This document shows positions 18,131 to 60,353 of a stretch of DNA of 64,000 nucleotides, in pieces. The notes beneath the pieces were generated by a model. That model made no database searches. It had not been told where the DNA came from and saw only the letters and a list, made by a program, of their open reading frames with translations. The position numbers were made by a program, and so were the translations under genes. The stretch's first letter is position 1. The number at the start of each line of letters is the position of its first letter. The DNA lies in assembly GCA_010405405.1 (NCBI GenBank), contig MU004230.1, positions 2,811,744 to 2,875,743 on the forward strand. The letters run 5' to 3'. The stretch comes from Microthyrium microscopicum. Taxonomy: Eukaryota > Ascomycota > Dothideomycetes > Microthyriales > Microthyriaceae.

Positions 18131-19308
18131 ATGGTCTCCGGCAGCCTTTCAAAGGCAGCTGTCCTCCTCGCTGCCATCTCAGGAGTCACCGCCCAAGGAG
18201 GATGTACAGTGACCTCTTACAGCGCACTAAAAGGTGCCATCGCAAGCTGTACATCAATCACCATCGGGGATCTCGAAGTCCCTCGGAACGAAGCACTTGA
18301 CCTCTCCCTCAAGTCAGGCACAACCGTAAGATCCCGTTACACCTTCTTCCACATTCTATTATACTGTCTCTTTTCTAACATACAGACCAGGTAACCTTCA
18401 CCGGCAAAGTAAACTTCGCCCCAACCCCTAAACCCGGCCGCACAAAACAACTCGTCACAATAACCGGCTCCAACATCAAAATCCGCGGCACAACCGGGCA
18501 CGTAATCAATGGTAACGGGCAAGCCTACTGGGACGGCGTAGGCGGAAACTCTGGAAAAACCATCGACAAGCCAAAATTCTTCCGCCTAAAACTTTCAAAT
18601 AGCGAAATCTCCAACTTGCACGTTAAGAATGTGCCTGTGCACGTTTTTAGTATCTCCGGATGCTCGCACCTTACTTTGGATGGGATAAGGATTGATAACT
18701 CAGCGGGTGATGCGAAAACTAGTGGTGGCAAGAGTCTAGGCCACAATACGGACGCATTCGATGTGGGTGAGAGTAATGATATTACGATATCGAATGCGTG
18801 GGTACATAATCAGGATGATTGTTTGGCGATCAACAGTGGCACGAATATCAAGTTCTTGAATGGGACTTGTATTGGTGGTCATGGCTTGTCCATCGGCTCT
18901 GTAGGAGGGCGAAACAATAATGTTGTTAAAGGTGTTCAGATCCGCAACAGCAAGATCTCCAAGTCGGAAAATGGTGTGCGCATCAAGACGAAGGCTGGTG
19001 AAGGCAAAGGTTCTGTCTCAAATGTTGAGTATAGCAACATTGTGCTTGATGGGATCACGAAGCGTGGTATTGTTATTCAGCAGGACTATGAGAATGGTGG
19101 ACCAACGGGCAAGCCTGGGCCGGAGATTCATATTAGTGATTTGACACTGAGTGGGATTACGGGCAGGGTGGATGGCAAGGCGAAGGCGATTTATGTGCTT
19201 TGTGCGAGTGGTGGGTGCTCGAATTGGAAATGGAGTGGGATTAATATCTCAGGGGGTGGTAGTAGTTGTTCTGGGGCGCCAGCTGGAGCGTCAGCGTTTT
19301 GTAAGTAG
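18131..19308 (+). CDS. Secreted endopolygalacturonase, GH28
   Basis: Hydrolyses alpha-1,4-galacturonan in plant pectin. Exons 18131-18325 and 18391-19308; 370 residues. The signal peptide is MVSGSLSKAAVLLAAISGVTA. The right-handed beta-helix carries all four GH28 motifs: NTD in HNTDAFDVG (about 184-186), DD in HNQDDCLAINSG (about 206-207), GHG in GGHGLSIGS (about 228) and RIK in NGVRIKTKAG (about 261). Paired Cys residues sit near the C-terminus (CASGGCSNW, SSCSGAP...FCK). The intron uses a GTAAGA donor and an ACCAG acceptor 5 bases beyond a decoy ACAG. The sense strand is C-rich in the first part and G-rich in the last part (see findings). Confidence 0.95.
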
Positions 19309-19475
19309 AGATGGTTTGAAGTAATGAATCAGTCAATTTAGCTGGGGAATACCAGTCTATGTACAAATGCTCGCTGTCCGATGCTGGATATCTATGCTGA
19401 AAAGTCAAAACCGTGAAAATCAAGGGAACCCATCCTCTTCGAACGTCCCATACCATCTGCCATATCATTCAGAGA

Positions 19476-20873
19476 CTACACACCCAAGGCGACCAGTCTA
19501 GCCTTGATATCCGCAACACCAGGCTTGCGATTTCGATCCACTACTACGCCTGTCACACTGCCAAACGTCACGACGCCGATATGACCTGGCGCCACCTCGG
19601 TCTGCAATAACTTGATCACTCGCTCTATCTCCTCGCGAGCTAGGGGACTGCGCATCGATGCTTGTACGTTGCGCACTAACATGCTCATTGGAAAGCTTGC
19701 GCGTGCCGAACCTCCTTTTGCTACGGCTAACATCTGGAGTACCTGAAGAACCTCCTCTGCACGCTGTAGAGCCGCCATTCGTTCGCGCTGTTCCTTGGTA
19801 GGTGCCGGAGCGGCACTGGCGGCTGCGGCTTCTTTGGCGTGGATGCGGGCGAGTAGTGACGAGGAGCGATCAGATGGGTTTGCTGGTGGTTCCGGGGTGG
19901 TGTTCTCCTTGTCCTTGCTCACTGGGGCAACGGTAGAAGTATGAGCAGCTTTTGTCCGCTTGAAGGGTCGGGTTGGTGTATGGTCGGAGAGATTGATGTT
20001 CTTGAATGGAGTGAGGACGTCTTCGAGACGGCGCTGCCCTTTTGCGCGGAGCGGTCCAAGTTTGGCTAATGTGGAGGAGGGAACGAGCGGTTCGGGAGAG
20101 ATGGAGGCGGTGAAGCATGAAGATGGGATTTGCTTCGAGTGCGATTCCCAAAGGCTCGCCAGGTTGGCATTGAAGGTTGCAATGGTGTCTGCTTCGTTGA
20201 AGGTACGTTGTGCTGGCCCGCGACCTTTGCGCTGCCGGGCAACGCGCTCGAGGCAGACTTTGCCTTCGCCATAGTCTTTAAGAAGGAAGCGAGTGGCCGT
20301 TGTGGCACTTTTACTGGTTGATGTCGAATGAATGATAGCCACGATTAGACGAATGTCTTCAATGGTGACTTTGCGCTTGCCCCACAGTTTGGTGATTGAG
20401 GGTGTGAGCATTCGAAGATCGACGGTGTTGGAGTTTCCATTGTGAGCATAATGAAGCGAAAGAGCAGATAGGAATGCACAATTTAGACGTTTCAAGTCTT
20501 CTAGTTCATTGGTGAAGCCATTGGAGCGGGTCGGGCTGCTTGGTGGAGAGGAGACAGCAATATCAATTTCTGGAGAGGCATGGCGCTTGCGCTTCAAGTT
20601 GGTGGCAGACGACAAGTTGGAGGCAGAGACTGAGAGGTTGAGATTTGCAATACTATGCTTGATGGCTTTCGTAGGAGTATCAGGGGGGGTAATAACCACA
20701 ACTCTACGCTTCTTGATGGAAGTCGTGACACTCAGACTGGACGGTCGTTCATCATCAGCTGTAGTCGGGTCGTGTTTACGTTTCTTGGACCCGAGATCAG
20801 AATCGGTACCGGGCTTTGAAACGCTACTAAAGTTGAGCGTAGCTCGCTGGACCATAGTTCTTGGACGAGGCAT
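19476..20873 (-). CDS. Cdt1-like DNA replication licensing factor
   Basis: Probable fungal Cdt1, which helps load the MCM2-7 helicase at origins in the nucleus. Single exon, 465 residues from MPRPRTMVQRATLNF. The N-terminal third is basic and Ser/Pro-rich, with nuclear-localisation-like KKRKH and KKRR patches. The middle (about 170-260) contains an alpha-helical block LEDLKRLNCAFLSALSLHYA ... LTPSITKLWGKRKVTIEDIRLIVAI ... YGEGKVCLERV, like the Cdt1 geminin-binding winged helix. The C-terminal block QRAEEVLQVLQMLA ... SFPMSMLVRNVQASMRSPLAREEIERVIKLL ... GHIGVVTFGSVTGVVV is the Cdt1 C-terminal winged helix that contacts MCM. QRATLNF near the start is only a weak PIP-box likeness. The frame is open 58 codons further upstream, but those are Ser/Pro-rich filler. 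Confidence rests on the two winged-helix blocks. Confidence 0.75.
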   Translation of the reverse strand: MPRPRTMVQRATLNFSSVSKPGTDSDLGSKKRKHDPTTADDERPSSLSVTTSIKKRRVVVITPPDTPTKAIKHSIANLNLSVSASNLSSATNLKRKRHASPEIDIAVSSPPSSPTRSNGFTNELEDLKRLNCAFLSALSLHYAHNGNSNTVDLRMLTPSITKLWGKRKVTIEDIRLIVAIIHSTSTSKSATTATRFLLKDYGEGKVCLERVARQRKGRGPAQRTFNEADTIATFNANLASLWESHSKQIPSSCFTASISPEPLVPSSTLAKLGPLRAKGQRRLEDVLTPFKNINLSDHTPTRPFKRTKAAHTSTVAPVSKDKENTTPEPPANPSDRSSSLLARIHAKEAAAASAAPAPTKEQRERMAALQRAEEVLQVLQMLAVAKGGSARASFPMSMLVRNVQASMRSPLAREEIERVIKLLQTEVAPGHIGVVTFGSVTGVVVDRNRKPGVADIKARLVALGV

Positions 20874-21046
20874 TTTTGGATAAGATAAGCTCAAGAAAAG
20901 ATGTGATAAGTATGGAGGGTTGAGCACTGGAAATGTCGAAGGTGAAGAAAAGAAAGATTGTTGTGTGAGATTTTGGTGTGTAGGGGAGTTGAGAATTGAC
21001 CCAATGATAAAGGGAGGCTGGCCGCGACTTCCCCAAATGCTCGTCA

Positions 21047-21052
21047 ACGCGT
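21047..21052. promoter_or_regulatory. MCB-like ACGCGT box upstream of the Cdt1-like gene
   Basis: The palindrome ACGCGT lies about 175 bases before the start codon of the Cdt1-like gene. In yeasts this is the MBF (Mbp1-Swi6) site that drives G1/S genes, including replication factors. Two further CGCG cores follow at about 21070-21090. Binding here is inference. Confidence 0.45.
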
Positions 21053-25806: not shown

Positions 25807-27332
25807 ATGGAGGACCCATCGAAGGTAGCTCGATATGCGCACCCTGGGCCTAATGAGCCAAAACCCAAGGCAAGCAAGAGCAAGTCCTCATATAAGACGA
25901 GAGTGAAAGACTACTTTGTTCGTATACCCTAGCATCTATCAGCAGAATATGAAGCTAACGAGTGATAGTTTGGTCCCCGAGATCCTACAAGACATTCAAA
26001 GATTCCCATGTTCTTTCGCCTTCATGGCAGCATTCTTCCGCATCTGATAGTACCCATGTTTATGATTGGGATATGGTCGACAGCTATTAGCTATATCTTC
26101 CTAAAAACATGGATCGACGATAATGGGAAGAAAACGAATCGTGCCGCCAACCGTAAGACTTGAACTTCTTGACTTTGAGGAATATGGCTAACTTGAGGTG
26201 TGGTATAGACAGTCTTGATTCACTCATGTTGACGGTGATGGGTTTCTTGGTCGGTATTGGTCTTTCTTTCCGAAACAGCACGGCATACGAACGATTCAAT
26301 GAAGGCCGAAAATACTGGTCGGCGCTGACCTCATACACGACGAACTTGGCGAGATTGATATGGATCCATGCCAAAGAGAGAGATGAGTTTCAGAAGGAAG
26401 ATCTTCTCAAGAAAATGTGAGTTTGCACTGGAACAACAGGTCTTGATGGAAAGCTAATTGGAGTAGAACGGCTTTGAACTTGCTTATTGGCTTTAGCAAA
26501 GCACTGAAGCATCGTCTTAGATTTGAGCCATACATCGATTATGAGGACCTCAAGCCCTATGTAGGCTTCTTGGATACCTATGCCCGAGACGCCAATGTTG
26601 GAGTCAGTGTCATCAAGCCAAAAGATCCAAACAAGTTCAAAGCATTCCTCGAGATTTTAGGTCTCAGCTTCGCCAAAGACAATCCTCGAGCCATGTTAAA
26701 GAGCGCAAAAAGGCCACTAGGAAATCTGCCAATGGAGATCTTAGTCTACCTAGGCGGTTACTTCGACGACTGTTTCGAGAACAAGACTCTAACCGTCGCC
26801 GTATACCAACAACAATCCAGTAAGTCCCTAACCCACCCAACCCACTCCTTACACTAACCTTCTTCCAGTAATCGGTCTCCAAAATCTCAAAGACGTCCTA
26901 ACAGGCTGCGACCGCATCCTCAACACCCCAATCCCCATCGCCTACTCCATAACCATCACCCAACTTTCCTGGGCCTACCTCCTAATCCTGCCCTTCCAAG
27001 TCATCAAGAAACTGCACTGGAACACCATCCCGGCCACCCTCCTCGCCGCCTACATCATTCTTGGTCTCGGGTACATTGGGCGCGAAATCGAGAATCCGTT
27101 CGGTCATAATGTAAATGATCTACAACTTGATCAATTTTGCGATCAGATTGAACATGATGTTGATGTTATTATGAGCAAGCCTGCTCCGAAAGCGCCAAAT
27201 TTCATGAAGAAGGCGGATAGTATGCCGTTGTATCCGGCATTTGGAGGGGATTATGATGATTGGGCGGCGAAGAGTAAGGAAGAGATTTTGTGGGCGCTGA
27301 GGGAGAAGATGGAGATGAGAGCGTTTCAGTAG
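25807..27332 (+). CDS. Bestrophin / UPF0187-family chloride channel-like membrane protein
   Basis: Predicted anion channel of the bestrophin-like RFP-TM family. Exons 25807-25917, 25969-26152, 26209-26416, 26467-26819, 26869-27332; 439 residues. The N-terminal half has ILPHLIVPMFMIGIWSTAI, then the family hallmark LTVMGFLVGIGLSFRNSTAYERFNEGRKYWSAL (a membrane helix followed by an Asn/Arg-rich turn). The C-terminal half has CDRILNTPIPIAYSITITQL, LPFQV and YIGREIENPFGHNVNDLQLD, which corresponds to the acidic calcium-clasp region of bestrophins. All junctions keep frame, and introns are about 50-56 bases. The last exon begins C-rich on the sense strand and ends G-rich. Membrane location (plasma or vacuolar) cannot be told from the sequence. 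Confidence 0.9.
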
Positions 27333-28970: not shown

Positions 28971-30611
28971 ATGAATACTCTTGCCCCTTTCCTTTACCCA
29001 TTTTCCCAAGCTGAGCTTCGTGCTGCATCACGATACGCACGGAAATTTGCCTCCTGCTCAAAACCTGGCCATGCTCGTATATCAGCCATTGGAATCCGCA
29101 ATTCTGCGTCCCTCTCGGTAGCATCAGACCCTAGCCGCCTCAATCCCGCGCCAGATGACTATAATATCACTCCCTTTGTCGACAAGTGCGTCTTCACAGT
29201 CCAAGCTGGATCTGGCGGTCATGGATGCGTCTCTTTTCTGAGAGAAAAATATATTCCGGATGGACCACCAAATGGAGGTGATGGAGGTACAGGCGGGCAC
29301 ATTTTCATACAAGCAGTACGATCTTGTACCTCGCTGAACAAGCTGGTCAAGAAACGAGAGTACGCGGCAGGCAGAGGTCAACATGGGCAAGGAGGCGCCA
29401 AAGGAGGCAAAAAGGGCGAGGACATACTACTGGAAGTTCCTGTCGGGACGGTGATTCGAGAAATAAAGAGATGGGATCCAGTGCAAATTCAAATGGATGT
29501 CGAAAAGCAAAACAAGATATCCAAAGGCACCCAGGAAGACCTGGTGGAGAAGCTGATTGACCGATTCCTTTTCTATCCAGGTCTGAAGGCTTCCCAAAGA
29601 CCTGGTTTAGATTCACTGCCGCGACTTCCTCTTGCTCGACGATCATCTATGGCTGCTCTTGCCCCTCAATCGCCTATACGCTTGGATCTGGATGAACATA
29701 TGGACAAACCAATGCTGCTGGCAGCAGGAGCAATAGGAGGTTATGGGAATCCACATTTTGCTGGACGAGATACACCGAAGCCTAAAGTGGCCACCAAAGG
29801 CGATACTGGAATGCGTATTGGTATGGCTCTGGAGCTCAAGCTTGTTGCGGACGTCGGACTAGTTGGGCTTCCAAATGCAGGGAAAAGCACATTATTGCGA
29901 GCAATGAGTAATTCGCGAGCTCGGGTTGGCAATTGGGCTTTCACGACATTGCAGCCTAACATTGGAACTGTTGTCCTCGACAACTACAAAGGCAGACCAT
30001 GGTATAGTGGTCGTCTTTCCATAAAAGATTTATCTGGCAATGGAGAACCGCGAACACGATTTACCATTGCTGATATTCCGGGTATCATTGAAGATGCTCA
30101 TCTCAACAAGGGTTTAGGCCTTGATTTCCTTCGACATATCGAAAGAGCACAGACACTGGCTTTTGTCATTGATCTCTCCGCTGGCGATGCCGTGGAACAG
30201 CTGAATGGCCTTTGGCGAGAAGTTGGAGAATATCAGACAATGAAAGAGCGAGAGAGCATGGAATATTCCCAACGGATCATACAATGGAACCCGTTGGAGG
30301 AAGCCGATACCGATCCTTTTCTTGATGGGATATCATACAAAGAGGCTGAACAGCTACCACCCTTGCTTCTGCCACCAATCACTCGTAAGCCTTGGTTTGT
30401 GGTAGCGACCAAAGCAGACCTACCAGAGACGCAGGACAACTTCCTCAAGCTTCGTGACTATGTTACTAGGCTGGAGAAAGGAGAATTTGATCACCCTAGC
30501 GGCAGGCCAAAAGCTCGAAGAGAAGGAGCTTGCGTTGTGCCAATTTCAGGCATCAAAGGCGAAGGTGTTGATCGCATTGTAGAAGTAGTTGTAAACATGT
30601 TGGACCAGTAG
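28971..30611 (+). CDS. MTG2: Mitochondrial Obg-family GTPase (Mtg2-like)
   Basis: GTPase required for assembly of the large mitochondrial ribosomal subunit. Single exon, 546 residues. The basic, Ser/Ala-rich head (about 1-60) looks like a mitochondrial presequence. The glycine-rich Obg fold follows (VDKCVFTVQAGSGGHGCVSF, GPPNGGDGGTGGHIF, AAGRGQHGQGGAKGGKKG). The G domain has G1 GLPNAGKST (about 299), switch I FTTLQPNIG, G3 DIPGIIEDAH, and G4 TKAD in VVATKADLP, with SG in PISGIKGEG as G5. An insertion of about 50 residues in the Obg domain (EKQNKISKGTQEDLV...) is common in fungi. The start is the first ATG after an in-frame stop-free leader. Confidence 0.93.
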   Translation: MNTLAPFLYPFSQAELRAASRYARKFASCSKPGHARISAIGIRNSASLSVASDPSRLNPAPDDYNITPFVDKCVFTVQAGSGGHGCVSFLREKYIPDGPPNGGDGGTGGHIFIQAVRSCTSLNKLVKKREYAAGRGQHGQGGAKGGKKGEDILLEVPVGTVIREIKRWDPVQIQMDVEKQNKISKGTQEDLVEKLIDRFLFYPGLKASQRPGLDSLPRLPLARRSSMAALAPQSPIRLDLDEHMDKPMLLAAGAIGGYGNPHFAGRDTPKPKVATKGDTGMRIGMALELKLVADVGLVGLPNAGKSTLLRAMSNSRARVGNWAFTTLQPNIGTVVLDNYKGRPWYSGRLSIKDLSGNGEPRTRFTIADIPGIIEDAHLNKGLGLDFLRHIERAQTLAFVIDLSAGDAVEQLNGLWREVGEYQTMKERESMEYSQRIIQWNPLEEADTDPFLDGISYKEAEQLPPLLLPPITRKPWFVVATKADLPETQDNFLKLRDYVTRLEKGEFDHPSGRPKARREGACVVPISGIKGEGVDRIVEVVVNMLDQ

Positions 30612-30819
30612 ATACCCACCAATGTATCATACTATATATTCTAATAATCAATAAACCAATCAATGTCCTTCCCGGTTTTCCCTAAATGTTCCCTTCAACT
30701 TACCTCCCATCATGCATTGCCTCTGTCACCTCCCCAAGCACAGACCACTCCAATTCTGATATCAACCAAACCACCATCACCACCATCCCCTCAACCATTT
30801 CTCTCAAACCACAACAAAA

Positions 30820-31446
30820 ATGTCCGATCCAAAACGAACATCCCGCTCCGCCCCCTCAAAACGCACCTCCCTCCTCCCCTCCGCCCCAAAACCACCTTGC
30901 AAAATCGACCCCGCAGCCACAATCGCCTCCTCCACCGTCCTCGCCGGCATCCACCCCATAACCATCGCCGCCCACGCCGTCCTACACCCACACGCACGCA
31001 TCGTCTCCGCCGAAGGACCCGTCACCATCGGAGAAGGATGTATAGTTTTTGAAAAAGCTACCATTGGCCCTCTTGCCCCCTCTACATCTACCGAATCTGC
31101 CACAATTACCGCACCGCCTAGTACGATTCTTGGGAAAAATGTTACGATATCTACGGGCGTCACGATTGAGGGTTGTGCAATAGGCGATGGCTGCGTGATA
31201 GAGCCGTACGCACGTATTGGGCAGGGCGCGAAGGTGGGTCGGTATTGTAAGGTGGTTGCGTATGGCGAGGTGCCAAAAGGCGCGAAGGTGGATGATTATA
31301 CGGTGGTGTATGGGAAGGGGAAACGGCGGGTTGATCGGACGATGAAGGAGTGGGGAGAGATGAGGGAGTTGAAGGAGGCGGTGCATGAGAGGCAGGTTCG
31401 GGGGTATCAGGGTTTGATTCCTAGTAATATTGCGAAGTGGTCTTGA
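30820..31446 (+). CDS. Dynactin subunit 6 (p27)
   Basis: Pointed-end component of dynactin, the dynein activator that moves nuclei and endosomes along microtubules. Single exon, 208 residues, usual length. The body is a left-handed beta-helix of hexapeptide repeats (VLAGIHPITIAAHAVLHPHA, VTIGEGCIVFEKATIG, ILGKNVTISTGVTIEGCAIG, VIEPYARIGQGAKVGRYCKV). A C-terminal helix ends QGLIPSNIAKWS, as in p27. The N-terminal 25 residues are basic and Ser-rich. Base use changes sharply inside the gene: 30961-31020 has 31 C against 11 G, while 31321-31380 has 5 C against 30 G, counted by eye on the sense strand (see findings). Confidence 0.9.
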   Translation: MSDPKRTSRSAPSKRTSLLPSAPKPPCKIDPAATIASSTVLAGIHPITIAAHAVLHPHARIVSAEGPVTIGEGCIVFEKATIGPLAPSTSTESATITAPPSTILGKNVTISTGVTIEGCAIGDGCVIEPYARIGQGAKVGRYCKVVAYGEVPKGAKVDDYTVVYGKGKRRVDRTMKEWGEMRELKEAVHERQVRGYQGLIPSNIAKWS

Positions 31447-31891
31447 GGAGGGAGTGGTTTGGAAGGGGGATCGGAAGTTGTGAGGCTATAGCTCCTGGAG
31501 AGTTCTTATAGAACTTGGCAGTGCCGTTAGAACGTCGGGTTGCAGGTTCTGGAGGCCCTGTAGTTCGTACTCCTGGATATCGGCGCTGGTGTGGCGTGAA
31601 AACCAGTATTGCATAGCTTGGAGTTGGGTTTACTGCTGATCGAAGCGAACCGGCTGAAGTGCTCAGCTGGATGCTCCATATTTGCGAAATGCAGTCGTTT
31701 ATAGTTCAGCTTGTCAGACGAGGTTCGACAATCACAATATCACTTTGCAGGGCTGACATTGATGTGAGGTCACGCTATACCTAGGTATATGGCAGGCTCA
31801 ATTATCTCTAGAATCAACAAACGAAGATTGTGGGTAATGTTTCTACCGCTACATACAAGTACACACGCCAAACATGGCACACAAGACCTTT
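31447..31891. other. Intergenic gap between convergent genes
   Basis: Holds the 3' ends of the dynactin p27 and ATP synthase gamma transcripts. Nothing else recognised. Confidence 0.5.
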
Positions 31892-32994
31892 TTAAGCATC
31901 TGCGGAGGCAGTAGCACCAGTGATAATCTCGACTAGTTCGTTTGTAATCACAGCTTGTCTGGTTCGGTTGAAAAGAATAGTGAACTTTCCAATCATGTCA
32001 CCAGCGTTTGAGGAGGCGTTCTATATCACATTAGTACATATTAACTGAGAGTATATTCTCATATAACTTACATCCATAGCGTTACGTCGGGAAGCTTGTT
32101 CACAAGCATGACCTTCGGCAAGAGCCCAGTACAGAGAGTTGGCTAAGGCGTACTCCCGGAGATTGGAAAGAACTTCACCTTCGATTTCGAAAGCGGAGTA
32201 GTTGGCTAAGAAATCATTAGTATCAGTGTTGTTGTTTGGACGGAGAGACACATACGTGATTCCGTGATGGCTTCTTCCGAGTAAGCTTCAATGATGACCG
32301 GTTCGAAGCTTGAGGCATTGTTGAACTTGTTGTACATAATCTTGATGGACTGGTAGTTCTCTGGGAGGCGGACAAGTTGATCCGCAATAGCCTGAGCCTC
32401 GCTAAAGGTTGGAATATCACGCCCAATACCAGCGAAACTGAGGACCATGTTCTTGGGGTTTGAACGAGACAGTTGAGCCTTGCACTTTTCTCCAATAACA
32501 GCAATATCGTAGTTTGGGTCCTCAATGAGCATCTTGCGAGTAGCACGAGACATTCCGGAGTGAATACCACCACAAAGTCCCTTGTCTGAGCTGCAGATGA
32601 CGATCAATGATTTCTTGTCTCCTTCCACTGGCTTTGTTTCGGCTTGTTCGAAGACGGTGTTGGAAGTTTGACCATATGCTCGGGAATCTGTCATGGCTCG
32701 TTGAGCGCGATTGAGCTTGGTGGAAGCAACGATTTTCATGGTCTTGGTGATCTTCTCGATGTTGCGAATCGACTTGAGACGCTGCTCAATTTCACGAAGG
32801 GTAGCATAGTTGGCGGCATTCGGGATGTTAGAGGTCGCTGGTCTGTGAAAAAGAGTAACACGTTAGTAAAACCTTTTGATATAGAGGATGGTAGTTCATG
32901 TAGTAGTCGCGAGAAGCTTTGTCCAGAGGGAATCATACCGAGCGACGACTTGAGCTCCTGCCCTGAGAGCGGGACGAGCAGCCCTTGAGAGCAT
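31892..32994 (-). CDS. ATP3: Mitochondrial F1-ATP synthase gamma subunit
   Basis: Central rotating stalk of the F1 motor in the mitochondrial matrix. Exons 32939-32994, 32256-32842, 32072-32205, 31892-32020; 301 residues. The presequence [19 protein letters not shown] is basic and fit for import. The family start follows ([34 protein letters not shown]), then [13 protein letters not shown] and the conserved C-terminal helix [33 protein letters not shown]. Exon 1 carries only the presequence. All junctions keep frame. The gene shares an 880-base divergent region with TOP1. Confidence 0.96.
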
Positions 32995-43907: not shown

Positions 43908-46550
43908 ATGGTCGAATTAGCAACCTCACACAATGCCCCGTTGCGACGAAGACGCTCGTCTTTAAGCGATGGCAACGATGGACTCACCAGCCCGTCGAAA
44001 CGACGGCGCGCTCTCGATGGTGACGGGGATGGAATCGTTGCCAAATCTCACTGCCCCGACTCGCAAGTCGGTAGAATCGATGCTTCTGAAGAGCAAGGAG
44101 GATCTAAGGGGCCTGAGGACTTCGACGATTCCATTGAATCAAGAATGTCTCTGGCAAGAGATATACTCCAAGCCTACTTCGACTTTGACGACTTCAAATC
44201 CGAGCAGGAAAGTAAGAGATTCCCGTGCCAAATCGCATTTCTTAACGACCTCCGATCAAACCGAAACAACCATACCTCTCATCCCTTTAATGACTACATT
44301 AGAATGCGATGGGAGTTGATTCCACCACAAAAAGACCAATTGGTCTTTCCGGCGTGTTAGCTCCAATCATCATCTTGTACTAAAGAATTCTAGGTGTGAT
44401 CAAAACACTTCTCTCCGGCGAGAACAGCCTTGCCATCCTGCCTACTAATGCCGGAAAGTCGCTATGTTATCAGCTACCTGCACTGTGCTTCGAGGAACTC
44501 GACAAGAAATATGGAGGCAACAAAGAGGGCAAACACGGCATAACGCTGGTGATTAGTCCGCTGATATCCCTGATGTCTGACCAGGTCGCCCGCGCTCCAG
44601 AAGAAGAATATCGCCGCAGACGCGATCAACACTTCCAAGTCGGCCGGCGAGGTGAGGACTATATTAAAATCTCTTGCCGAAGGGAAGCTGAAAATATTGT
44701 TCTGTGCCCCTGAGAAGTTCATGAGTAAGCCCTTTGTGCAAGCTATATCGGCAGTTCCTGGCGGCGTTCGCCTGTTGGCTGTTGATGAGGCGCATTGTAT
44801 CTCAGAGGTAGCCTACTTTAGGATTTTTGGTTTAGTGTGATACTGATAGACTCGTGTAGTGGGGATACAGCTTTCGCCCGGAATACTTACGAGTCTCTCA
44901 ATTTAGCAGAGGTATCAAAGCCCAACAGGTAGTCTGCCTGACCGCTACAGGTACGCCTAGTCCTTTTTAAGATCTAGCCATGACTGATTTCAACCATTGA
45001 AAAGCCACAGAACAAGTCGCCGAAGATATCGCCACATCGTTCAACATCAAGCCAGCCGGTATATTCAAGCAAAGCCTCTATCGGCCCAAGTAAGCTCTTC
45101 ATCTACTCGGAATTATGTTTTGCTGACCTTGAAGCTTAATATTGGATGCGAAAGCTACTACCAATGATTACACCAAACTTGGGCACGTAGAAAATTTCCT
45201 AAGAACTCATCCCGGTCAGACTGTCATTTTCGTCCAGTTCAAGTCGGTGCGTACTCTCTAAAACTTGCCAGTCGGTTCGGGAGACACCGTAGTTGATGGG
45301 AGGGCGCCATTTATTTTGTCGATGATTGACTTGCATGTCGCAAATGCTAATAGCAACCAGACGACAGTTGATCTACCAAGAGAGATCCGAAGTCGGCTTG
45401 GTGACTTTGTAGCAACAGAAGGCTACAGCGGCGGCTTAAATATGAAGAAAAGAAAGGAAGTAGAAGAGCGATTCATGAACGGGGAAATCAGAGTGGTGAG
45501 TACATTGTCATGTTTTCATGAGTGCACTAACCTGGTAGCTCGTCGCAACTCTCGCTTATGGCATGGGAATCGACAAAAAGGACATCAGGAACGTGATTCA
45601 TTACAACGCTGCGCGCAATCTCGAGGAATATAGCCAGCAAATTGGCAGGGCTGGTAGAGACGGCCTTCCCAGTAAGTGCTTGCTGCTCTATGATGATCGG
45701 GACATCGCAACGCACAAAGTAAGGCTCTCCAGAAACCTCAGGGCAGCGAAGACCTAACCTTAGAATTATCAGAAATATGCAACAACTGCTATACCCGCGC
45801 AAGGAGTGATTGAAATCTGCCTAAAGCACTTCTTTAACGGCGCCAATCAACCAGAGATCGGGGTAGGCGACACCTTCGAGGTCGACCACGCTAAAGTCAT
45901 GAAAGCGTGTCGCTTGGATGATGAAATTGTTCAGATAATTTATGCCATCTGCGAAAAGAAGTTCCGTAAGTGCTCATATGTTCGAGATTCACGTCTATAC
46001 GCTGACCTCAAGCTTTAAAGAGCTCTTCGAATTGCGCTCAAAGCAAGAAAGGGAAGTTCGACTCCGTCTTCCTATGACGCGCGGTGCATCAACGCTTAAT
46101 GACTTGAAGAAATATGCCCAGTCTGACACGTCCGCTACTGGAAAAGCACTCAATTTTGTCATAAGCCAGTCTCAAGGACCTACCATCCCCATCCACATCA
46201 TCGATTTAGCCACAAAGTCTGGTCTTGAGCACGATGCCCTAGTAGCCAAAGTTATCGACTACTTCCACGAAGGGCTCATTGCGTGGCCGGAGTTTGAGGT
46301 TGTCTATACCGTCAAGCTACTGCAGCCCGCTCCGACAGCTGTCGAGCAGCTGAAGCTTAGTAGACAGCTGTTCGATGATCTTGATAGAAATGGGCCGCTT
46401 TCGAGGGAGCGAATCAAAAAGCTCGATGCACTTTTTCAAGGGCATGAGTGCTTTGCTGCGGCGTTAACGCGATACTTTGGGATGGGTTTGCCAAACGGGC
46501 TGACTCAGTGCGATCAGTGTACTTGGTGTACAACTCGTAAGGCATTGTAA
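43908..46550 (+). pseudogene. RecQ-family DNA helicase gene with one extra base in exon 2
   Basis: ATP-dependent 3'-5' DNA helicase type. Exons 43908-44211, 44394-44807, 44860-44950, 45005-45089, 45135-45246, 45361-45495, 45539-45718, 45764-45965, 46021-46550. Motifs: [15 protein letters not shown] (motif 0), Walker [75 protein letters not shown] and [13 protein letters not shown]. Odd points: Walker A has Asn where Gly is usual (TNAGKS for TGAGKS). The Cys cluster normally just after the helicase core appears instead at the extreme C-terminus (CDQCTWC after ALTRYFGMG), past about 220 extra residues. Near 44587-44593 a run of three C where two would keep frame shifts the reading. A 16-base intron there is implausible, so the gene is either broken or the base is an assembly error. 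All other junctions keep frame. Confidence 0.8.
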
Positions 46551-48857: not shown

Positions 48858-49878
48858 ATGGCGGATACCTCACCTCCCGTCGCGGTCTTCAAAAAGCGCA
48901 CCACCAAAAACCTCCGGAAACGTCCCGCAACTCCACCACCCGCCTCCTCCTCCGACGAAGAATACTCATCCACCGACGAAGCCGGCCATCGCATAAAACG
49001 GCGTCGACGCGCAGGCGTTGCTGCTGGCTCCACCACCCACAAAGCTGGCAAAGACTCGAGTGACTTGCTCAGCACGACGAAATATGCGGCTGACCGATCG
49101 ACGTTGATCGCAGACTCGAACGATGCTACCAAACAGAGTAATTGGTACGACGAACATGCGCCAGATGCACTCAGCGCAAAATCTTTGCTGGGCACAACAA
49201 GAGCAAAGCCAGCGGTGCCGGATCAGGAGAGAGATGGCGCGTATCATGGGCAGGCGGGGTATACGAATTTTATAGCGAAGAATCCGAATAAACAGGACAA
49301 GGGGATGGGACCTGTGAAGGCGCCGACGAATTTGAGGGCGATTACGATTACGGATTATAGTCCGGATGTGTGTAAAGATGTAGGTTACCCTAGTTCCAAG
49401 AATTCAAGTATACTGCTAACATATGTCGCAGTATAAGCAGACGGGTTTCTGTGGATTTGGCGATAATTGCAAATATTTACACACGCGAGAAGTCTACAAG
49501 CAGGGCTGGGCACTAGACAAGGAGTGGGAGATTCAGACGAGAGGCAAGAAGCTCAAGGGTACGGTGGTAGCGTCGGCGAACCGCAGTGCGATTGATGAAG
49601 AGGAGGAGAAGGATGCTGAGCTGTTGGAGAAGATTCCGTTTGCGTGCATTATCTGCAAGGGGCCATACAAGAATCCGGTGGTGACGAAGTGTGGGCATTA
49701 CTACTGTGAGAGTTGTGCGTTGCAGAAATATCAGAAGAATCCGAGTTGTGTGGCTTGTGGAGCTGGCACGAATGGAGTTTTCAATACTGCGAGGAATTTG
49801 AACAAGCTTTTGGAAAGGAAGAAGAAACGGGAGGAGAGACTGAAGGAATTAGAGCAGGAGGATGAAGATGAAGAATGA
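48858..49878 (+). CDS. CWC24: Cwc24 / RNF113-type splicing factor (CCCH plus RING fingers)
   Basis: Spliceosome-associated protein that guards the 5' splice site in the activated complex. Exons 48858-49379 and 49432-49878; 322 residues. The head is low-complexity and basic (KRPATPPPASSSDEEYSSTD, IKRRRRAG). The conserved middle has GYTNFIAKNPNK and GPVKAPTNLRAITITDYSPDVCKDYKQ, where the intron falls after CKD. A CCCH finger follows ([20 protein letters not shown]), then EWEIQ. A C3HC4 RING finger runs FACIICKGPYKNPVVTKCGHYYCESCALQKY...PSCVACG. The tail is a charged helix ending EQEDEDEE. The first 150 bases are C-rich and the rest G-rich on the sense strand. Confidence 0.94.
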
Positions 49879-51967: not shown

Positions 51968-53510
51968 TCATTCAATCGTGTGGTTTCGATAAGTTCTCAA
52001 TCTCGGCCATTCCGTCTTCCAGAAATCTGGCCCACCAGTCTTTTGAATTGCCTCTAACAGCGCTGTGAGCTCCGGAGAAAAGGCAATATTCTTGAAATCC
52101 AGGAGTTCCAAAGGATACTTTTTATTAGCCTCATTTCTTCCATTTTTGCACTCCACTAGCTCATGCGCAAAGCAAATAGCTTCCCAGGGAAGTCCCATGC
52201 GAATCGCCAGTTTCAGCCCTGCCATATGGACAGGCACGTTACCAGGATCCACATGACCTGTAATCTCATACCAGTCCAAGGCTTTATAATATCGAGTTTT
52301 GCGTTCACCTTCGTATTCCTTGTGGGTGCGATTCTCCCAATCTAGTGTCGATTGGGATATTGAGTCCTGTGTAGTTAAGACTTCGGCCTTTGTTATGCGC
52401 AATGATTCATCTTTCAATACATCGGGTCCCTTCAGCGGATAAGGATGGTAGAAGGACTTCCAGGTATGACGAGGCCAGACAATGTGGAAGTCAGGCAAAC
52501 CTGCCAAAGGATCGCACTTTCCGGGTGTCTCGATGTAATCTCTAGTTGACGCTGACAGCTTACTGAACGTCTCATCGTCAAGAGCACATAAGTCTCCCAG
52601 TCGCTTGCCAACTTCCTGAATGTTCATGTTGCAGCCAGCAAGCAAATGCACCTCCAGAAAGTGTTCGTCGGTAAACTCCATACATTCTAGAAGTTTTGAA
52701 ACTGCTCCTGCGTGCTGATGCTGCAATGTAGCTTCGAGCCAAGCTTTTTTAGCACCATCTTCGTCGTCCTTGTTGCGTTGATGCAGACCGTGAAAATAAT
52801 AAATGTCTCCTATCGACGGAAGTTGCGATTCAAGTCCTGGCAGCGCGTGTGCGTCTTTGTTGGCCTTCCATGTACCGTTTCCAACCATAAGGATGATTTC
52901 TGGCCACAGAATATCGGCCTCGCCCATCGTTGCATTCGTTGGTGGCACAGAACTCAATACAAAGGCTTTGTAAGCCATGGCCTGTAAATCGTTCTTCTCT
53001 GCTAGAGAACCCAGCTCGCGAAGAGCACTCTGGGCTAGGGGTATGTTCCATTGTCCTTGGTCGCCTTGAACTCGAAGTATGCTCTGTATTATGGTGAAAG
53101 TGGTTTCACGGCGAAGTTTTGAGTTTGGACTTTGTATACAGGCACTCAGTATGCGCTGTACATTTTGAATGACTTTGGGATTGTTGCTGTTCACATTGAC
53201 GGGATTGCGAGCCCAGGTCAAGGCTTCTGGTGTTTCGGGGTTTTCTATTCAAGTTAGATATGTGGTATGAAAGATTTGTTGGACCGAAATAGTTACCGCT
53301 TGTCCATGGTAAGACTTTATCGGGATTGCCGGCATCATCTTTGGGGGCAGTTGCACGCTTTGGCTTCGACTGTACTGGTGGGGGCTTTCGATTTGGAGTG
53401 GTTGATTTGAAAGCAACTAGAACATGGCGATTGAAGGGTGTGCAAGCTACTGGTGATAGACGAGGACGAACCGAGAGTTGGGCAAGGCAGGTACGACAGG
53501 TACGAATCAT
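51968..53510 (-). CDS. Mitochondrion-targeted protein of unknown function, helical-repeat type
   Basis: Exons 53297-53510 and 51968-53244; 496 residues. The N-terminus (MIRTCRTCLAQLSVRPRLSP...) is rich in Arg and Ser with few acids, a good mitochondrial presequence, followed by a Pro/Lys-rich linker. The body is all-helical in appearance: paired amphipathic helices such as ALRELGSLAEKNDLQAMAYKAF, YYFHGLHQRNKDDEDGAKKAWLEA and PVHMAGLKLAIRMGLPWEAICFAHELVE resemble Sel1/TPR-like repeats. Conserved-looking FHIVWPRHTWKSFYHPYPLKG lies in the middle. No catalytic motif is visible. Fungal-specific as far as I can tell; function unknown. The intron has a CTAAC branch point and both junctions keep frame. 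Confidence 0.72.
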
Positions 53511-54736: not shown

Positions 54737-57700
54737 ATGGCTCTCGTCGAGCAACCCGCTGCTCAGCTTGAGAAACACCTCGAGACTCCACCACAATCAC
54801 CCCAGTCCGACGCTGCCACGCCTGTACCCAAGAAACCTCTCGAAGATATACCTACTCCAACCGATTCTATGGTCAGCATTGATTTGTCTGAGCCCTCGAG
54901 AAATAGTGATGGGTCGATATTAGTTGAGGATACTACTGCCAAAGATTTGGTTGAAGAAGTTTTAAAGCGAGCATCCGAATCGCCGACACGTCACAGATCT
55001 GAAATTGAAGTTGCAGATGTTGTAGATTCACCTGGTGCAGAGGCTCGGTTGATGGAAGAAGTGGCATTTGAAAAGGAGAGGGCCCGTGCTGGTTCAAGGA
55101 GAGGATCTGTTGCAACAACTTCTGGTAGAGATCGAAGTGATTCTGCAGCATCTGAAAAGAGTGTCGACGTTGATTGGGAATCTTTGGATCGTACTGAAAC
55201 CCAACAGACTAACGATCAAGATGATGAAGTGAGTACTACATGTCACTTCTTGGCAATAATTCCGTTACTGACTGGTAATCGCAGCAAACAACACTTTTAC
55301 TCGCTCGATTGGAACAAGAAAACAATGCAATCGCTACCGACCCCAAGAATAGAATACAACGGCGAGTCCGTGGCCAATCCAGACCTCCTTCCATACTACA
55401 TCTTCAAAAACTGGTTCAAGAGCAAGGAGCACGATCCGTCCGATTCTCTCTCTTACCAACCGCCGCTCCCATGACCGAACTCGACTTTTGGGCTGCTCTA
55501 GTCCGCGATTATCCTCAAACTGCTCAACGATTACCAACCATAACTTCCAATAAAATCCGAAGCGGAATTCCTCCACCACTTCGTGGCGTGACATGGGTCA
55601 GCATGTCTGGTGCTCGCGAAAGAGCCATTGAAGAACAATATGACAAATTATACTACGAACCTAGCCCATATGAGAACATGATCGGGAAAGATGTCGGACG
55701 AAGCTTTCCACAGCACGAAATGTTTCGCGATCCAAACGGTGATGGACAAAGGATGCTGGGCAGTGTTCTTAAATGTTATAGTCTGTATGACGACAAGATC
55801 GGATATTGTCAAGGTCTTGGTTTCCTCGTTGGTCCTCTTCTGATGAATATGGGCGACAAGGAAGCATTCTGTATTCTTGTTCGGTAAGTCTCAGATTCAT
55901 ACATACACCACAACATGCAACTAACAGGTCCAGACTTATGGAAGATTATGGTCTTCGATCATGCTTTCTCCCCGATCTCTCCGGACTTCATCTTCGAATT
56001 TATCAATTCAATACGCTACTTCGTCAACATGTTCCAAAAGTTTCAGCACATCTGGAGATGCTAGGGGTGGAAGGAGAATATCTTTCACAATGGTTTCTAT
56101 CATTTTTCGCAGTTACCTGTCCCTTACCCTTACTCTTCCGCATCTACGATGTCATTTTCGCCGAAGGAGCTTCAGAAACCATTATGCGTGTGGCTTTGGC
56201 CATAGTTCGACGCAACGAACGTAAAATTCTCGGTTATTCCGAATTCGAGGATGTTATGCAGTTACTCCTCTCCCGCCAACTTTGGGATGTGTATGGCTTA
56301 AGCCCAGCCTCGGCAGACGAATTCGTGCATGACTTTGTTAGCTTCACCAGCTTGGTCACTCGAGAGAGTTTGAATGCTGTCGAAGCCAACTTTCGTGAAG
56401 CACAAAACAGATCCGGAGGTCGAAACAGCTTTTTGCCCAACGTTAGTAGCGCTGCCTCTCGTTTCCTGGGTCGACTTTGGACAACAACACCAAAACAACA
56501 GACGCTTACTCCTGGAAATGTGCCAATACAACAAAACTCTAGGCCAACCAGTAGGCTTTTACGGACACCATCGAAACAGAGCTTGTCCACAATTAGTTCG
56601 GCAGAAGGCGCTTCAGAATCTTCAGCCAGCACAGCCAGCACAGCAATGACTGATGTGTCCATGATCTCCAGAGACAGTTCGAACGACGCCTTCTCTTTCA
56701 AGTCAAGCAAATCACCAGAATCAATGCCTCCTCCAAGTCGGCATAGACACCAACAGTCGACGAGCACAAGCAAAGAGCGCGAACTTGACAGCCAAATCGA
56801 GGATCTTCTCACTGTGTTAAGTGAGATGCAGAAGAACCAGGCCCTTCTCACAGCCCAATTACAAAAGATGCAAGAAGACCGCAATGAAGACAACATCGCC
56901 GTTCGCGCCTTCATCGACCAAGTCCGTCTCGACATGTCTGTCCCACTTCCCAAAGCCCGCTCTCACCGCCGAGCCGCATCCGCACAAATCACCAAAGCCC
57001 CAGACGCCGACCACCGCAAAATCTCACCCACCACAATCCGCCTCCTCGACTCTTTAGAAACACGGCTCTCCTCGCGCCACCACCGCCGCTCCTCCAACTA
57101 CGAAACAAAAGCAGACCTCCGCCACACCATCGCCACCGTCCGCGAACAACTCCACGTCGAATCCACGCGCTCCCAGGAACTTACCCGCCAACTCGACACG
57201 AAAGAACAAGAACTCTCCAACCTCCGCGACGAAGTCAGCCACGCACGCGCCCGCATCAAAGACTCCCACTTTGACAAACAGCGCCTCGAAAAAACCGTCC
57301 TTGATCTCCGCCAAGCACAGCGAAGACCGAGCCGCACGCCCACCCGCTCAAACAGCAAATCGTCCACGCATAGCGAGCATGAGACTGAGTTACCTGACGC
57401 AGCTGGCAAAGGTGGTCTTCGAGAACTACGACTTGGCCGTGGGCCAGGCATTTCGCGCACCAATAGTAATGGGCCGACGCAAGTCTTCGCCAAACGTACA
57501 TCTAGTCTTGCTTTCACCAACAGCGAGCCTGGCCCTGGATCACTTCGGCACGCAGCAACGGTTAGTGCGCCGACGTTCTCGACGACACATCCGGAGAACG
57601 ACTCGATTCTTCTTGAACTTGCGAATGCCAAGACTGCGGAGGCGATTGCAAGGCAGGAACTGGAGGAGATGCGCGCGCGTTTCGATGCGTTGCGGAGAAG

Positions 57701-57884
57701 TATCTCGAGTGGCGCATCATCACCAGCGCCCACAGCACCCATGACCATCGCGACTTCTGAGCCGCTAGCTGCAACGCGGATTGAAAATAGCAGTGGCGCT
57801 GGGACACCGACAGCTGTGCCGACACCACCAGTGAGCGGAGGCGGCTCGTTTGGTGGGTTCTTTGGCTGGGGAAAGAAAGCTTGA
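54737..57884 (+). CDS. TBC-domain Rab GTPase-activating protein (Gyp5/EVI5-like)
   Basis: Turns off a Rab GTPase in the secretory or endocytic pathway. Exons 54737-55228, 55285-55883, 55934-57884; 1013 residues. The head (1-165) is disordered and acidic. The TBC domain (about 250-470) has motif A SGIPPPLRGVTWVSMSG, the Arg-finger motif IGKDVGRSFPQHEMF (Arg about 301), and the Gln-finger IGYCQGLGFLVGPLLM (about 337), so both catalytic residues are present. Later DYGLRSCFLPDLSGL and LEMLGVEGEYLSQWFLSFF support it. The C-terminal 500 residues hold Ser-rich linkers and long coiled coils (QIEDLLTVLSEMQKNQALL, RQLDTKEQELSNLRDEV). The end FGGFFGWGKK is a conserved tail of Gyp5-type fungal proteins. 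Bases 56880-57330 are markedly C-rich. Confidence 0.92.
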
Positions 57885-59388
57885 TTACTCCTGTAGTTGA
57901 TTTGCACCCTGCAGTTGATTTATATCCTGCAGATGATATTGTTGTACATATACCCTAGAAGGACAAACTTTCGTTTAATGTGTATATAAAGAAGAAATGG
58001 TGTATATAGATGGGGCATATTCGGAGTAGAGATCAAGGCAAGCATGGGTGGTATTTGCTTTGGGATATAGATGATATTGGACAATCTTTTGTCTGTCGGA
58101 TATTCTGAATGAGTTAGATATAATTCACATTTTCGATCCACATTCATGCTAACTCTACGTGGATTCAGCTCACAGCATCCTCCCAAGTCTAAATGTTCTC
58201 CATCCAATTTCAATGTCATGATAGATCGCACCCCTTGAACACTTGAACACCATTTAATCAGGGTTTGTACGATTACTCATACATGGCCTTTTGTTGCAGG
58301 ATCTAACTTCTTGTTTTGATTCATTCGATTCACTTGTTCCTTGGTCATTCAACAAATCATTCGACCATGTACTTCTCCTTGTCGTTGCCGCTGCATGCCG
58401 AGTAAATCCCTGCCTCACTTGGTTGGCACTGTTGGGTTCGTCAAAGCTGGTATCCTGGTATTGAATCAGCGATCGAGTTTTGGCCCTTGACTTTTCGAGT
58501 CCCCTATAGTCCCCTCAATTTCTTTCTGGTCGATCATTTTCCTTGTTCTTGGCAACTCTTTCAGCTCAATCGTCATTGTTGTCTATATCTAGTACCTACG
58601 TTCTTACTACGTTAAAGTTGATAAGAAATTAACCCGAAGTTCACAATAAGGCTGCACAATGTTCCAACTTTTGTCACTGCAGGGAGTGAAATCTGATGTT
58701 GATGTCCTGGTGGCGAAGTTCTACACAGCATGATGTCAAATGCTATAAAGATTAGAATGCAATTCATGGACTGATCAAGCTGCTGACTTGCCTTGCTTGC
58801 GCATAACAAGGGACTTCTCTGGTGCCAAGTATCACCATACATCCAACTTTCTTGCCTCATTATTTGATACAGAGCCCATGCTCCCTGCCATCCTTGATCA
58901 CAAGGCAACAAACAGCTTTTCGTGATTTCAGGGATTGTACATGACAACTCTCCGACCATTGGATCGTATTGTGAAGCTCTGGGATTTGCAGCTAGCATTC
59001 TTTCCCATGTGGTTTTCTGGTCCTATCGTTTTTGGGCGTGAGGGGCTTCTACTGGGACGTTGTTGGCTCTGGTAGAAGGTATACCTGGAGATTGGTAGGG
59101 GATGGTCTCATGAGACACCAGACCCGAAGGTTCCGAATGCCTTGCGGTCTGCTGGTGTAAGGGTATGGGTCTGCTATTGAGTCATTATTACTGGCATTGG
59201 GTTTGTTTTGAAGTAATCGTTAGCGAAGGGGTCAATGGGGATGATGGAGATCGCCTTTGCCGGTTGTATAAAATCTGTCACAGTTCCTGATTTCTCAACT
59301 GTTGGTTCGAACTGTCAATCGTCTTTTCGGATCTTTAAGTAGCATCTACAAGAAGTATAATAAGTACATTCTGGTACCTAAAGAAACC
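57885..59388. other. Gene-poor gap
   Basis: About 1.5 kb. Just after the TBC stop, three imperfect copies of an 18-20-base unit (CCTGTAGTTGATTTG type) run at 57892-57940. A 128-codon minus frame (58612-58998) has no domain. The right end should carry the promoter of the opsin-related gene. Confidence 0.45.
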
Positions 59389-60353
59389 ATGGGCAACCAC
59401 GCACTTGATGTGAACCGTAAGTTATTCCCACCCTTGAAGACCATGTATCTGCCAGTATCCAAAACATCACTAACATCAAATAGCACCATTCGGTGCAGAC
59501 ATCCACATCACCACCCGAGGCTCCGACTGGCTCTGGACAGTTTTCTCCCTCTTCACCCTCGCCACCATCCTCTTCCTAGCACACAGTTTCGTCAAACTCC
59601 CCAGCGAGCGCCTCTTCCACTACATCGACATATCCATCCTCCTCCTCGCCAGCATCACCTACTTCACCTACGCCAGCGATCTAGGCTACGTTGGCATAGG
59701 CGTAGAATTCTTCCGCAGCAACCACAAAGTGCGCGGCGCAACTCGACAGATCTTCTACGTTCATCACATCTATTGGGTCTTGAGTACACCGTTGCTGCTA
59801 CTCAACGTGCTGCTTACTGCCGCTTTACCGTGGACTCATGTCTTTTTTGTGATCCTGGTTTCACTTGTGGCGACGGTGTCGTTTTTGGTGGGCGCGTTGA
59901 TTTCTAGCACGTATAAGTGGGGATTCTTTGTGTTTGGGTTGGCTGCGTTGGGGTATATTGCGTATACGCTTGTCATTCCGGGAAGGAAACATGCTGCGTT
60001 TTTGGGTACGGATGTTGCGAGGGCGTATAATGTAGCTGCATTGCTGCTTATATTCGCTGGATTCTTGTACCCTATTGCTTGGGGAGTCAGGTAAGTAAAA
60101 TCGGCAGATCTACGACAGGGACGGGATACTAACATACTATAGTGAGGGCGGTAATGTTATCTCGCCAGATTCAGAAGCCGTATTCTACGGTATCTTGGAT
60201 CTGTTGGTCGCCTTTGGAGTCTGTGGATGGACTATTTGGGCTCACCACGATATCGACCCCTCAAGACTCAACCTTCGCTTGCGCAGTTACGACGAAGACA
60301 TCCCAGGCGCCAAGGGACATGTTGAGAAACCAAGACCAGCTGCTAATGTCTAG
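59389..60353 (+). CDS. Opsin-related seven-helix protein (Hsp30/Yro2/Mrh1-type), no retinal Lys
   Basis: Microbial-rhodopsin fold membrane protein of the fungal ORP group; yeast relatives are stress-induced plasma-membrane proteins. Exons 59389-59416, 59484-60090, 60143-60353; 281 residues. Seven hydrophobic segments are visible, starting DIHITTRGSDWLWTVFSLFT, then ISILLLASITYFTYASDLGY, GATRQIFYVHHIYWVLSTPLLLLN, LVSLVATVSFLVGAL, YKWGFFVFGLAALGYIAY and NVAALLLIFAGFLYPIAWGV. In helix G (EAVFYGILDLLVAFGVCGW) the position where rhodopsins have the Schiff-base Lys is not Lys, so it should not bind retinal. All junctions keep frame. The sense strand is C-rich early (59521-59580: 27 C, 8 G) and G-rich late (59881-59940: 6 C, 21 G). 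Confidence 0.92.

Follow-up and report, generated by a model that had tools for sequence, protein, structure and literature searches.

Opposite GC skews at the 5' and 3' ends of genes in Microthyrium microscopicum

Some genes of the ascomycete Microthyrium microscopicum (GenBank assembly GCA_010405405.1) were found to carry opposite GC skews at their two ends, the sense strand being C-rich in an early zone and G-rich in a late one. The pattern was followed up from a 64 000-nucleotide stretch of contig MU004230.1 (C1), here called the window, in which a first-pass annotation made from the letters alone had described a switch from C-rich to G-rich composition inside several genes. The opposite end skew is real in this genome. 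It is anchored at the gene ends, where each zone measures roughly 300 nt, and a gene's two ends are linked in amplitude; the skew is best read as a substitution pattern and not as a coded signal.

Sample and opposite skews at the gene ends

The sample comprised 304 kb, about 0.8% of one 36.9-Mb genome in 20 contigs, and consisted of the window (C1 2811744-2875743), 200 kb flanking it on C1 and 40 kb of contig C5; 61 kb of the 304 kb were masked as AT-rich. Gene models were generated with a purpose-written predictor that combined a coding Markov model with start, donor, acceptor and branch terms, and the branch-site term and a heavier intron cost were used in the final settings (lighter settings overcalled introns). 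Introns were predicted to be short and to have donors of the GTAAGT type and branch sites of the CTAAC type, in keeping, like the gene content, with a filamentous ascomycete. Coding regions of 450 bases or more were retained (69 on C1 and ten on C5), shorter ones being excluded from all counts, and one more gene (<200 codons) was excluded from the end-based counts, which cover 78 genes. The model at 10289-14433 appears from its translation to merge an ALG12-like and a galactosidase-like gene, that at 43908-46550 is ragged, and the 3' end of the dynactin-p27-like gene, where the predictor had added a doubtful 3' intron, was set by hand at the stop of the open reading frame (ORF). For each gene the synonymous codons were permuted within the gene, preserving the protein and the codon counts, and z was calculated from the third-position GC skew of the last 100 minus the first 100 codons (halves if the gene was too short). 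The cut-offs (z > 3, 100 codons, p < 0.01) were picked after the data had been seen.

Nineteen of the 78 genes lay above z = 3 and none below -3 (34 above 1.64 and six below -1.64); chance and amino-acid content are ruled out as the cause by this comparison with shuffled synonymous codons. By block, the strong genes (z > 3) numbered three of 16 in the left flank, seven of 23 in the window, eight of 29 in the right flank and one of ten on C5; 12 of the 19 lie outside the window (12 of the 55 genes there), one of them on C5, and those in the window start at 18131, 30820, 41200, 43908, 48858, 51968 (minus strand) and 59389. Raw non-overlapping ATG ORFs, taken without gene models, gave ten of 72 above 3 and none below -3. 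When each gene was split into halves, 12 of the 69 C1 genes lay above 3 and one below -3, and the same numbers were obtained over all 79 genes once the dynactin model had been corrected; ten of the 12 strong proteins of this split were scanned against Pfam and eight matched on the predicted strand. Strong genes had looked short because the half-gene split was used, and the idea that only short genes are affected was discarded after five of 26 genes longer than 600 codons had qualified with fixed 100-codon ends. The effect increases with the fourfold-site GC content (rho = 0.45). Averaged over 69 genes, the GC skew was -0.17 in the first tenth and +0.13 in the last; at fourfold sites it went from -0.32 to -0.01 (-0.71 to +0.34 in 12 strong genes). 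Counting turns regardless of where the genes lie gave no information, since every stretch between genes tends to turn back from G to C, in alternation with the C-to-G turns within them. Over the strongest single case, the dynactin-p27-like gene, the skew in successive 300-base segments (30601-31500) was -0.68, -0.26 and +0.60.

The eight counts of C and G in 60-base lines that had been quoted in the first-pass annotation were all exact on recount, and its statement that the shift is mostly at third codon positions agrees with the 19 strong genes, in which position 3 goes from -0.59 to +0.50 and positions 1 and 2 together from -0.12 (5') to +0.28 (3'); the proteins are bent too. The affected genes are unrelated, as had been said, but only a minority (19 of 78) is strongly affected. 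Among the further cases that had been named, the Cwc24-like gene is strong (z = 6.2) and the bestrophin-like, TBC-like and Cdt1-like genes are weak (2.5, 2.1 and 1.6); the strong gene at 51968-53510 on the minus strand had not been listed. No clear pattern was found in the genes described as lacking one, TOP1 (0.0), Med1 (-0.9), Obg (1.5) and the model that contains ALG12 (-1.8). The accompanying change from A-rich to T-rich is present at the fourfold sites of affected genes (AT skew +0.24 to -0.02) and absent from the overall sequence, in which the changes in GC and AT skew are nearly uncorrelated (r from -0.08 to +0.14).

In bins of 25 codons from the start, the skew of the 19 strong genes runs -0.55, -0.61, -0.62, -0.57, -0.33, -0.19, +0.03 and, contrary to expectation, -0.33 in the eighth bin (135 sites), and in bins counted back from the stop +0.48, +0.62, +0.56 and +0.32, then about zero. 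In the 14 genes selected by their twofold codons (see below) the third-position skew lies between -0.58 and -0.71 in the first 100 codons and between +0.54 and +0.65 in the last 75, and it has faded to about zero by about 150 and about 125 codons, respectively. In the 59 genes that are not strong, the last 25 codons stand at +0.13 and those from 75 codons further in at about -0.14 to -0.21, while the first 75 codons (-0.19) are hardly below the middle (-0.07 to -0.19). The flanks of 12 strong genes place the onset of the C-rich zone sharply at about 130 bases before the ATG and the end of the G-rich zone at about 50-60 bases past the stop codon; the former zone extends about 300-400 bases into the gene and the latter comprises the last 225-300 bases before the stop. 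Between -120 and 0 the skew is -0.31 to -0.42 in these 12 genes and -0.21 to -0.26 in 55 others. Midway along long genes the skew is close to baseline, and short genes appear to switch in the middle because the 5' and 3' zones meet there; a turn at a fixed point in the gene, as had been proposed, was not borne out by these end-anchored zones. The onset about 130 bases upstream of the ATG is near where a transcript could start, which fits the proposed tie to transcription.

The first-pass annotation had suggested a local, strand-asymmetric process instead of codon selection, and this stood up to the synonymous shuffling and to the skew of the introns. In the 69 C1 genes 138 introns were predicted; from all blocks, introns no longer than 130 bases were taken if their G+C and the codons beside them sufficed, splice and branch sites were masked, and 123 were retained. 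Their GC skew tracks the third-position skew of the codons within 200 bases (rho = 0.46, p = 1e-7, n = 123), also after removal of the genes with a half-split z above 3 (rho = 0.38, n = 112). Pooled, it was -0.43 beside C-rich exons (20 introns) and +0.24 beside G-rich exons (13 introns). Four successive introns of the epimerase-like gene have skews of -0.38, -0.59, +0.62 and -0.24 in order, the fourth opposing the trend. The introns are predicted, and some late ones are perhaps misread. Because introns follow the local coding skew, codon choice and protein content are insufficient on their own, and codon selection alone is ruled out as the cause.

In order to avoid a circular choice, genes were selected by their twofold codons only and the fourfold sites were read afterwards. 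Fourteen of the 78 genes rise at p < 0.01 and none falls; in the twofold codons that served for this selection, NNY codons go from 71% to 26% C and NNR codons from 27% to 77% G between the 5' and 3' ends. Relative to the other 64 genes, the fourfold composition of the 14 is shifted at the 5' end by -0.008 (A), +0.184 (C), -0.087 (G) and -0.089 (T), C being gained about equally from G and T while A is unchanged. At the 3' end G is gained from C and A and T is nearly unchanged, the complemented shift being +0.019 (A), +0.205 (C), -0.122 (G) and -0.101 (T). The correlation between the 5' and the complemented 3' shift (r = 0.99) is descriptive and not a test, as the four values sum to zero. Purines at 5' fourfold sites make up 0.335 in the 14 genes and 0.428 in 47 controls; plain deamination alone is ruled out by this deficit, which is unobtainable through transitions. 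No simple dependence of the C gain on sequence context was obvious by eye in a table, for which no statistical test was made.

The two ends were also found to vary together. Eleven genes chosen by their 5' end have a 3' skew of +0.50 against +0.05 in 48 controls (p = 1e-4), and 25 genes chosen by their 3' end have a 5' skew of -0.44 against -0.18 in 43 controls (p = 2e-4). Shuffling within genes ties the z-values of both ends slightly by construction; the 3'-chosen comparison holds in genes of at least 400 codons, whose windows are well apart (p = 0.005, 12 versus 23 genes). In genes chosen by the 5' end the 3' fourfold sites contain A, C, G and T at 0.16, 0.13, 0.43 and 0.28, and those of controls at 0.24, 0.25, 0.22 and 0.28.

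Comparison with published gene-end skews

An average pattern of this kind was described by McLean & Tirosh (2011; PMC3315797) in almost all unicellular fungi examined, many filamentous ascomycetes among them (papers are cited here for those portions of their text that were available). Common to that study and to the present one are the C-biased 5' and G-biased 3' ends, also at fourfold sites, and the entry of the skew into the 5' flank; their 3' peak is at the stop codon. The flanking reach found here is to about -130 on the 5' side and only to about +60 on the 3' side. Their averages were pooled by species, their AT skew was flat and C-to-T deamination was argued against; the AT skew found here is nearly flat in all-gene averages and falls at the fourfold sites of strong genes, as given above. 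Differences between genes were seen there as well, 33% of Candida albicans genes being individually significant by shuffling. Tests of introns, of neighbouring genes, of linked ends and of the mirrored spectrum were made here, and none appears in the available text of that paper.

For plants and some fungi, Fujimori et al. (2005; PMC555766) reported an excess of C over G near transcription starts, which they linked to transcription; their available text concerns the 5' end only, with no 3' counterpart, and the excess of C upstream of the translation start is also present here. GC skews of opposite sign at the two gene ends were described for vertebrates in 2010 and attributed by the authors to substitution bias, with the sign reversed relative to ours: positive at the 5' end, where it exceeds 0.1 in primates and rodents, and negative at the 3' end except in primates (PMC2927911, available portions).

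The average pattern is therefore already known; new as far as searched are the strong gene-to-gene differences, the linked ends and the near-complementary 3' shift. The present work adds, from the small part of one genome covered, a measured between-gene variance, the linked ends, the intron and neighbour tests and the mirror spectrum. No gene-specific or mirror-spectrum report was found among the matches listed from the literature searched, most subscription journals lying outside it, nor was a later resolution of the cause, for which the 2011 paper had left two proposals. Two papers citing McLean & Tirosh were found in that literature, and both concern, by their titles, mitochondrial genomes.

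Origin of the end skews

We tentatively favour, with rather less than even confidence, a strand-asymmetric substitution pattern produced at both gene ends by one process close to where transcripts begin, those at the 5' end being sense and those at the 3' end antisense. What is seen as composition comprises the zones and their mirror symmetry, the skew of the introns, the lack of a detectable influence of the next gene's orientation, and the linkage of the ends; it is from these that we infer the antisense step and the single process. The process would act over the initial few hundred bases transcribed by RNA polymerase II in either direction, with sense transcripts starting at the promoter and short antisense transcripts near the 3' end, and in both cases C and A would be lost from the template strand, which would end up with G. 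Template deamination or base loss, together with insertion of C opposite abasic sites, would yield the spectrum at freely changing sites, where such loss and insertion would raise C at the cost of G and T and leave A constant; the G-to-A part at twofold sites would come from plain deamination.

Published work on other fungi holds elements of such a process, in each case in the text that was available. Antisense transcripts of Neurospora start preferentially at gene 3' ends and have a median length of 251 bp (PMC5738166), and of 1984 loci of Aspergillus nidulans with a defined antisense bias 1280 were 3'-biased, 352 central and 352 5'-biased (PMC4046813). When transcribed DNA of yeast contains abasic sites, C is what is mostly inserted on bypass, and G>C or T>G/A>C changes result (PMC6420880, a review); a role of Rev1 appears in a title cited there.

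The main rival would place two mutational regimes, governed by initiation and termination factors, along one sense transcription unit with no need of antisense transcription, and we consider it possible but somewhat doubtful. It is one of the two explanations published by McLean & Tirosh for the average pattern (PMC3315797, available text), it is suited by the onset of the skew near the presumed transcript start, and linked amplitudes fit one shared transcription unit. It gives no reason for a 3' spectrum that is nearly complementary and of similar reach, and the 3' zone stops near the stop codon and not at termination, as those authors noted. Their second explanation, avoidance of C late in the gene to speed the polymerase, belongs with avoidance of local mRNA structure and pairing of the mRNA ends to a group in which selection acts on RNA. 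This we hold to be distinctly unlikely, even though the first 300 nt of the 19 strong genes are less structured than their synonymous shuffles (-8.7 versus -10.8 kcal/mol per 60 nt, p = 4e-5) and selection on the nascent transcript would reach introns too: low structure results from skew of any cause, the effect at the 3' end is weak (p = 0.08), and introns, which are removed from the mRNA, track the local skew. Pairing of the two mRNA ends equalled the expectation from composition (z = -0.00, n = 19), and a designed pairing, showing no excess over end composition, was rejected.

Damage to single-stranded DNA arriving from outside the gene, by resection from meiotic breaks at promoters or from a replication origin in the middle of the gene, appears very improbable to us. 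Both variants predict C and A on the left and G and T on the right whatever the direction of the gene, as is seen on both strands. Breaks born at promoters predict weak 3' zones where genes converge, whereas the 3' zone averaged +0.16 over 41 convergent ends and +0.07 over 33 tandem ones (p = 0.21); the 3' zone has no detectable dependence on the orientation of the next gene in this comparison, and convergent zones that are not weaker argue against the neighbour's promoter as their source, so that the next gene's promoter and promoter breaks are unsupported. An origin in mid-gene would carry its skew across the gene edges; the skew drops within about 130 bases outside the start and about 60 outside the stop, and replication-origin skew, which changes sign and extends past gene limits, was not supported on the same grounds, as well as being at odds with the near-baseline middle of long genes. 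It seems equally remote that nothing here is gene-specific and that genes varying by chance around the average published for whole genomes would suffice. The 3' rise of the 59 other genes over their last 25 codons would accord with this; the variance of the end-to-end difference, 0.245 where 0.036 is expected from sampling, would not, the true between-gene standard deviation being 0.46.

Several points weigh against a shared process at sense and antisense starts. Antisense transcripts in this fungus are assumed, antisense RNAs occur in only 9% of Neurospora genes (PMC5738166, available text), and the 3' skew falls little short of that at the 5' end although published antisense RNAs are rarer and weaker than sense RNAs. 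The flanks of the 12 strong genes show no mirrored pyrimidine-rich antisense leader beyond the stop, where the skew reaches only about 60 bases as against about 130 outside the start, and linked ends also fit a single transcription unit. In a yeast reporter the transcribed strand was annealed to nascent RNA and hence not single-stranded (PMC6420880, available text), a remark that counts here because the mechanism needs template-strand damage, and the relation to expression reported for Candida is very weak (PMC3315797, available text). The shift from G to A at twofold purine sites of the 5' end is unexplained by C insertion alone, and the spectra were derived from composition, not from observed mutations. 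The 5' decay is uneven, reaching +0.03 to +0.08 and then -0.33 to -0.47 at codons 175-200 (75-135 sites). The gene models are predictor-made with known flaws; z exceeds 3 in five of 38 models with more than two exons and in 14 of 40 with one or two. Contig C5 is weak, with one strong gene in ten and a median half-split z of -0.26.

A bolder extension of the sense-and-antisense reading, which we think unlikely, is that the skew is a sequence fossil of two-way transcription: a 5'-type zone on either strand would mark the first few hundred bases of a long-used transcript, DNA alone would tell which genes had antisense transcription from their 3' ends in the course of evolution, and the mark would have arisen as the template lost C and A and a Rev1-like bypass inserted C at abasic sites. 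If the favoured reading itself is right, skewed genes should carry antisense starts near their stop codons and unskewed ones should not, and a plain composition scan would map ancient antisense transcription. The cause of the end skews becomes testable through the mirror spectrum, the differences between genes and the results on introns. Programs that predict genes, and models of codon usage or of trees, could go wrong where they take the composition of a gene to be uniform.

Genes of the window and their surroundings

Table 1. Coordinates of genes and introns of the window. Skews are given as 5' -> 3' in the sense of the gene; names marked (f) are those of the first-pass annotation.
Feature	Position	Strand	GC skew	z	Remark
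Polygalacturonase (GH28) gene	18131..19308	+	-0.79 -> +0.57	8.1	Pfam Glyco_hydro_28, E 5e-102
Early intron of GH28 gene	18326..18390	+	-0.52		C-rich
Cdt1-like gene (f)	19476..20873	-		1.6	Weak
Bestrophin-like gene (f), putative	25807..27332	+	-0.06 -> +0.40	2.5	Weak
Obg-like gene (f)	28971..30611	+	-0.59 -> 0.00	1.5	Not clearly affected
Dynactin-p27-like gene (p27: f)	30820..31446	+	-0.96 -> +0.71	8.8	Single exon; strongest case
ATP synthase gamma-like gene	31892..32994	-	-0.33 -> -0.51	0.1	C exceeds G at both ends
TOP1-like gene (f)	33879..36732	+	-0.13 -> -0.01	0.0	Unaffected
NAD-dependent epimerase-like gene	41200..42574	+	-0.79 -> +0.57	7.0	Pfam Epimerase, E 2e-18
Intron of epimerase-like gene	41495..41561	+	-0.59		In C-rich part
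Intron of epimerase-like gene	42129..42179	+	+0.62		In G-rich part
Fourth intron of epimerase-like gene	42448-42495	+	-0.24		Nearer stop; exception to trend
Unnamed gene model	43908..46550	+	-0.37 -> +0.35	4.1	Eight pieces; doubtful in detail
Cwc24-like gene (f)	48858..49878	+	-0.43 -> +0.62	6.2
Gene without Pfam match	51968..53510	-	-0.48 -> +0.43	4.6	No match at E 0.001
TBC-like gene (f), putative	54737..57884	+	0.00 -> +0.33	2.1	Weak
Opsin-related gene	59389..60353	+	-0.84 -> -0.21	3.6	Pfam Bac_rhodopsin, E 2e-17

The product of the dynactin-p27-like gene contains hexapeptide repeats (Pfam Hexapep, E 3e-13), and that of the Cwc24-like gene a RING finger (Pfam RING) with a weak CCCH match. 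In the opsin-related gene the turn is internal, yet the third positions of its last 100 codons do not become G-rich. The gene at 31892..32994 on the minus strand is, judging by its translation, presumably an ATP synthase gamma-like gene; it is probably highly expressed, and in genes of that sort the end pattern may be hidden by selection for codons ending in C.

The 3' ends of the Cdt1-like and GH28 genes face each other across a gap of 167 bases and are both G-rich in their own sense (+0.24 and +0.57). Of seven convergent pairs no more than 333 bases apart, three (with gaps of 62, 167 and 333 bases) are G-rich on both sides (at least 0.24), two on one side and two on neither. Adjacent genes are not alike in skew (rho = 0.07, 69 pairs). 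Of the 19 strong genes, 13 have a convergent gene downstream; of the 55 others whose neighbour is known, 28 do (Fisher p = 0.28).

The dinucleotide ratios TpA/ApT and (CpA+TpG)/(ApC+GpT) serve as indices of repeat-induced point mutation (RIP). Three AT-rich blocks (window 1-3300, C1 2700001-2718800 and C1 2784118-2810000) have a GC content of 0.25-0.28 and carry very strong RIP-like signatures, with TpA/ApT at 1.65-1.75 and (CpA+TpG)/(ApC+GpT) at 0.18-0.28 (about 0.7 and about 1.3 in gene-rich C1); gene-rich and AT-rich compartments alternate here. The segment at 37800-40200 of the window, with a GC content of 0.36, TpA/ApT of 1.44, an index of 0.82 and no gene in the final models, is possibly an older or milder RIP-affected repeat. 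At window positions 1-1200, which are AT-rich and hold no gene in the final models, the plus strand has a G skew of +0.27 to +0.35 over 1200 bases.

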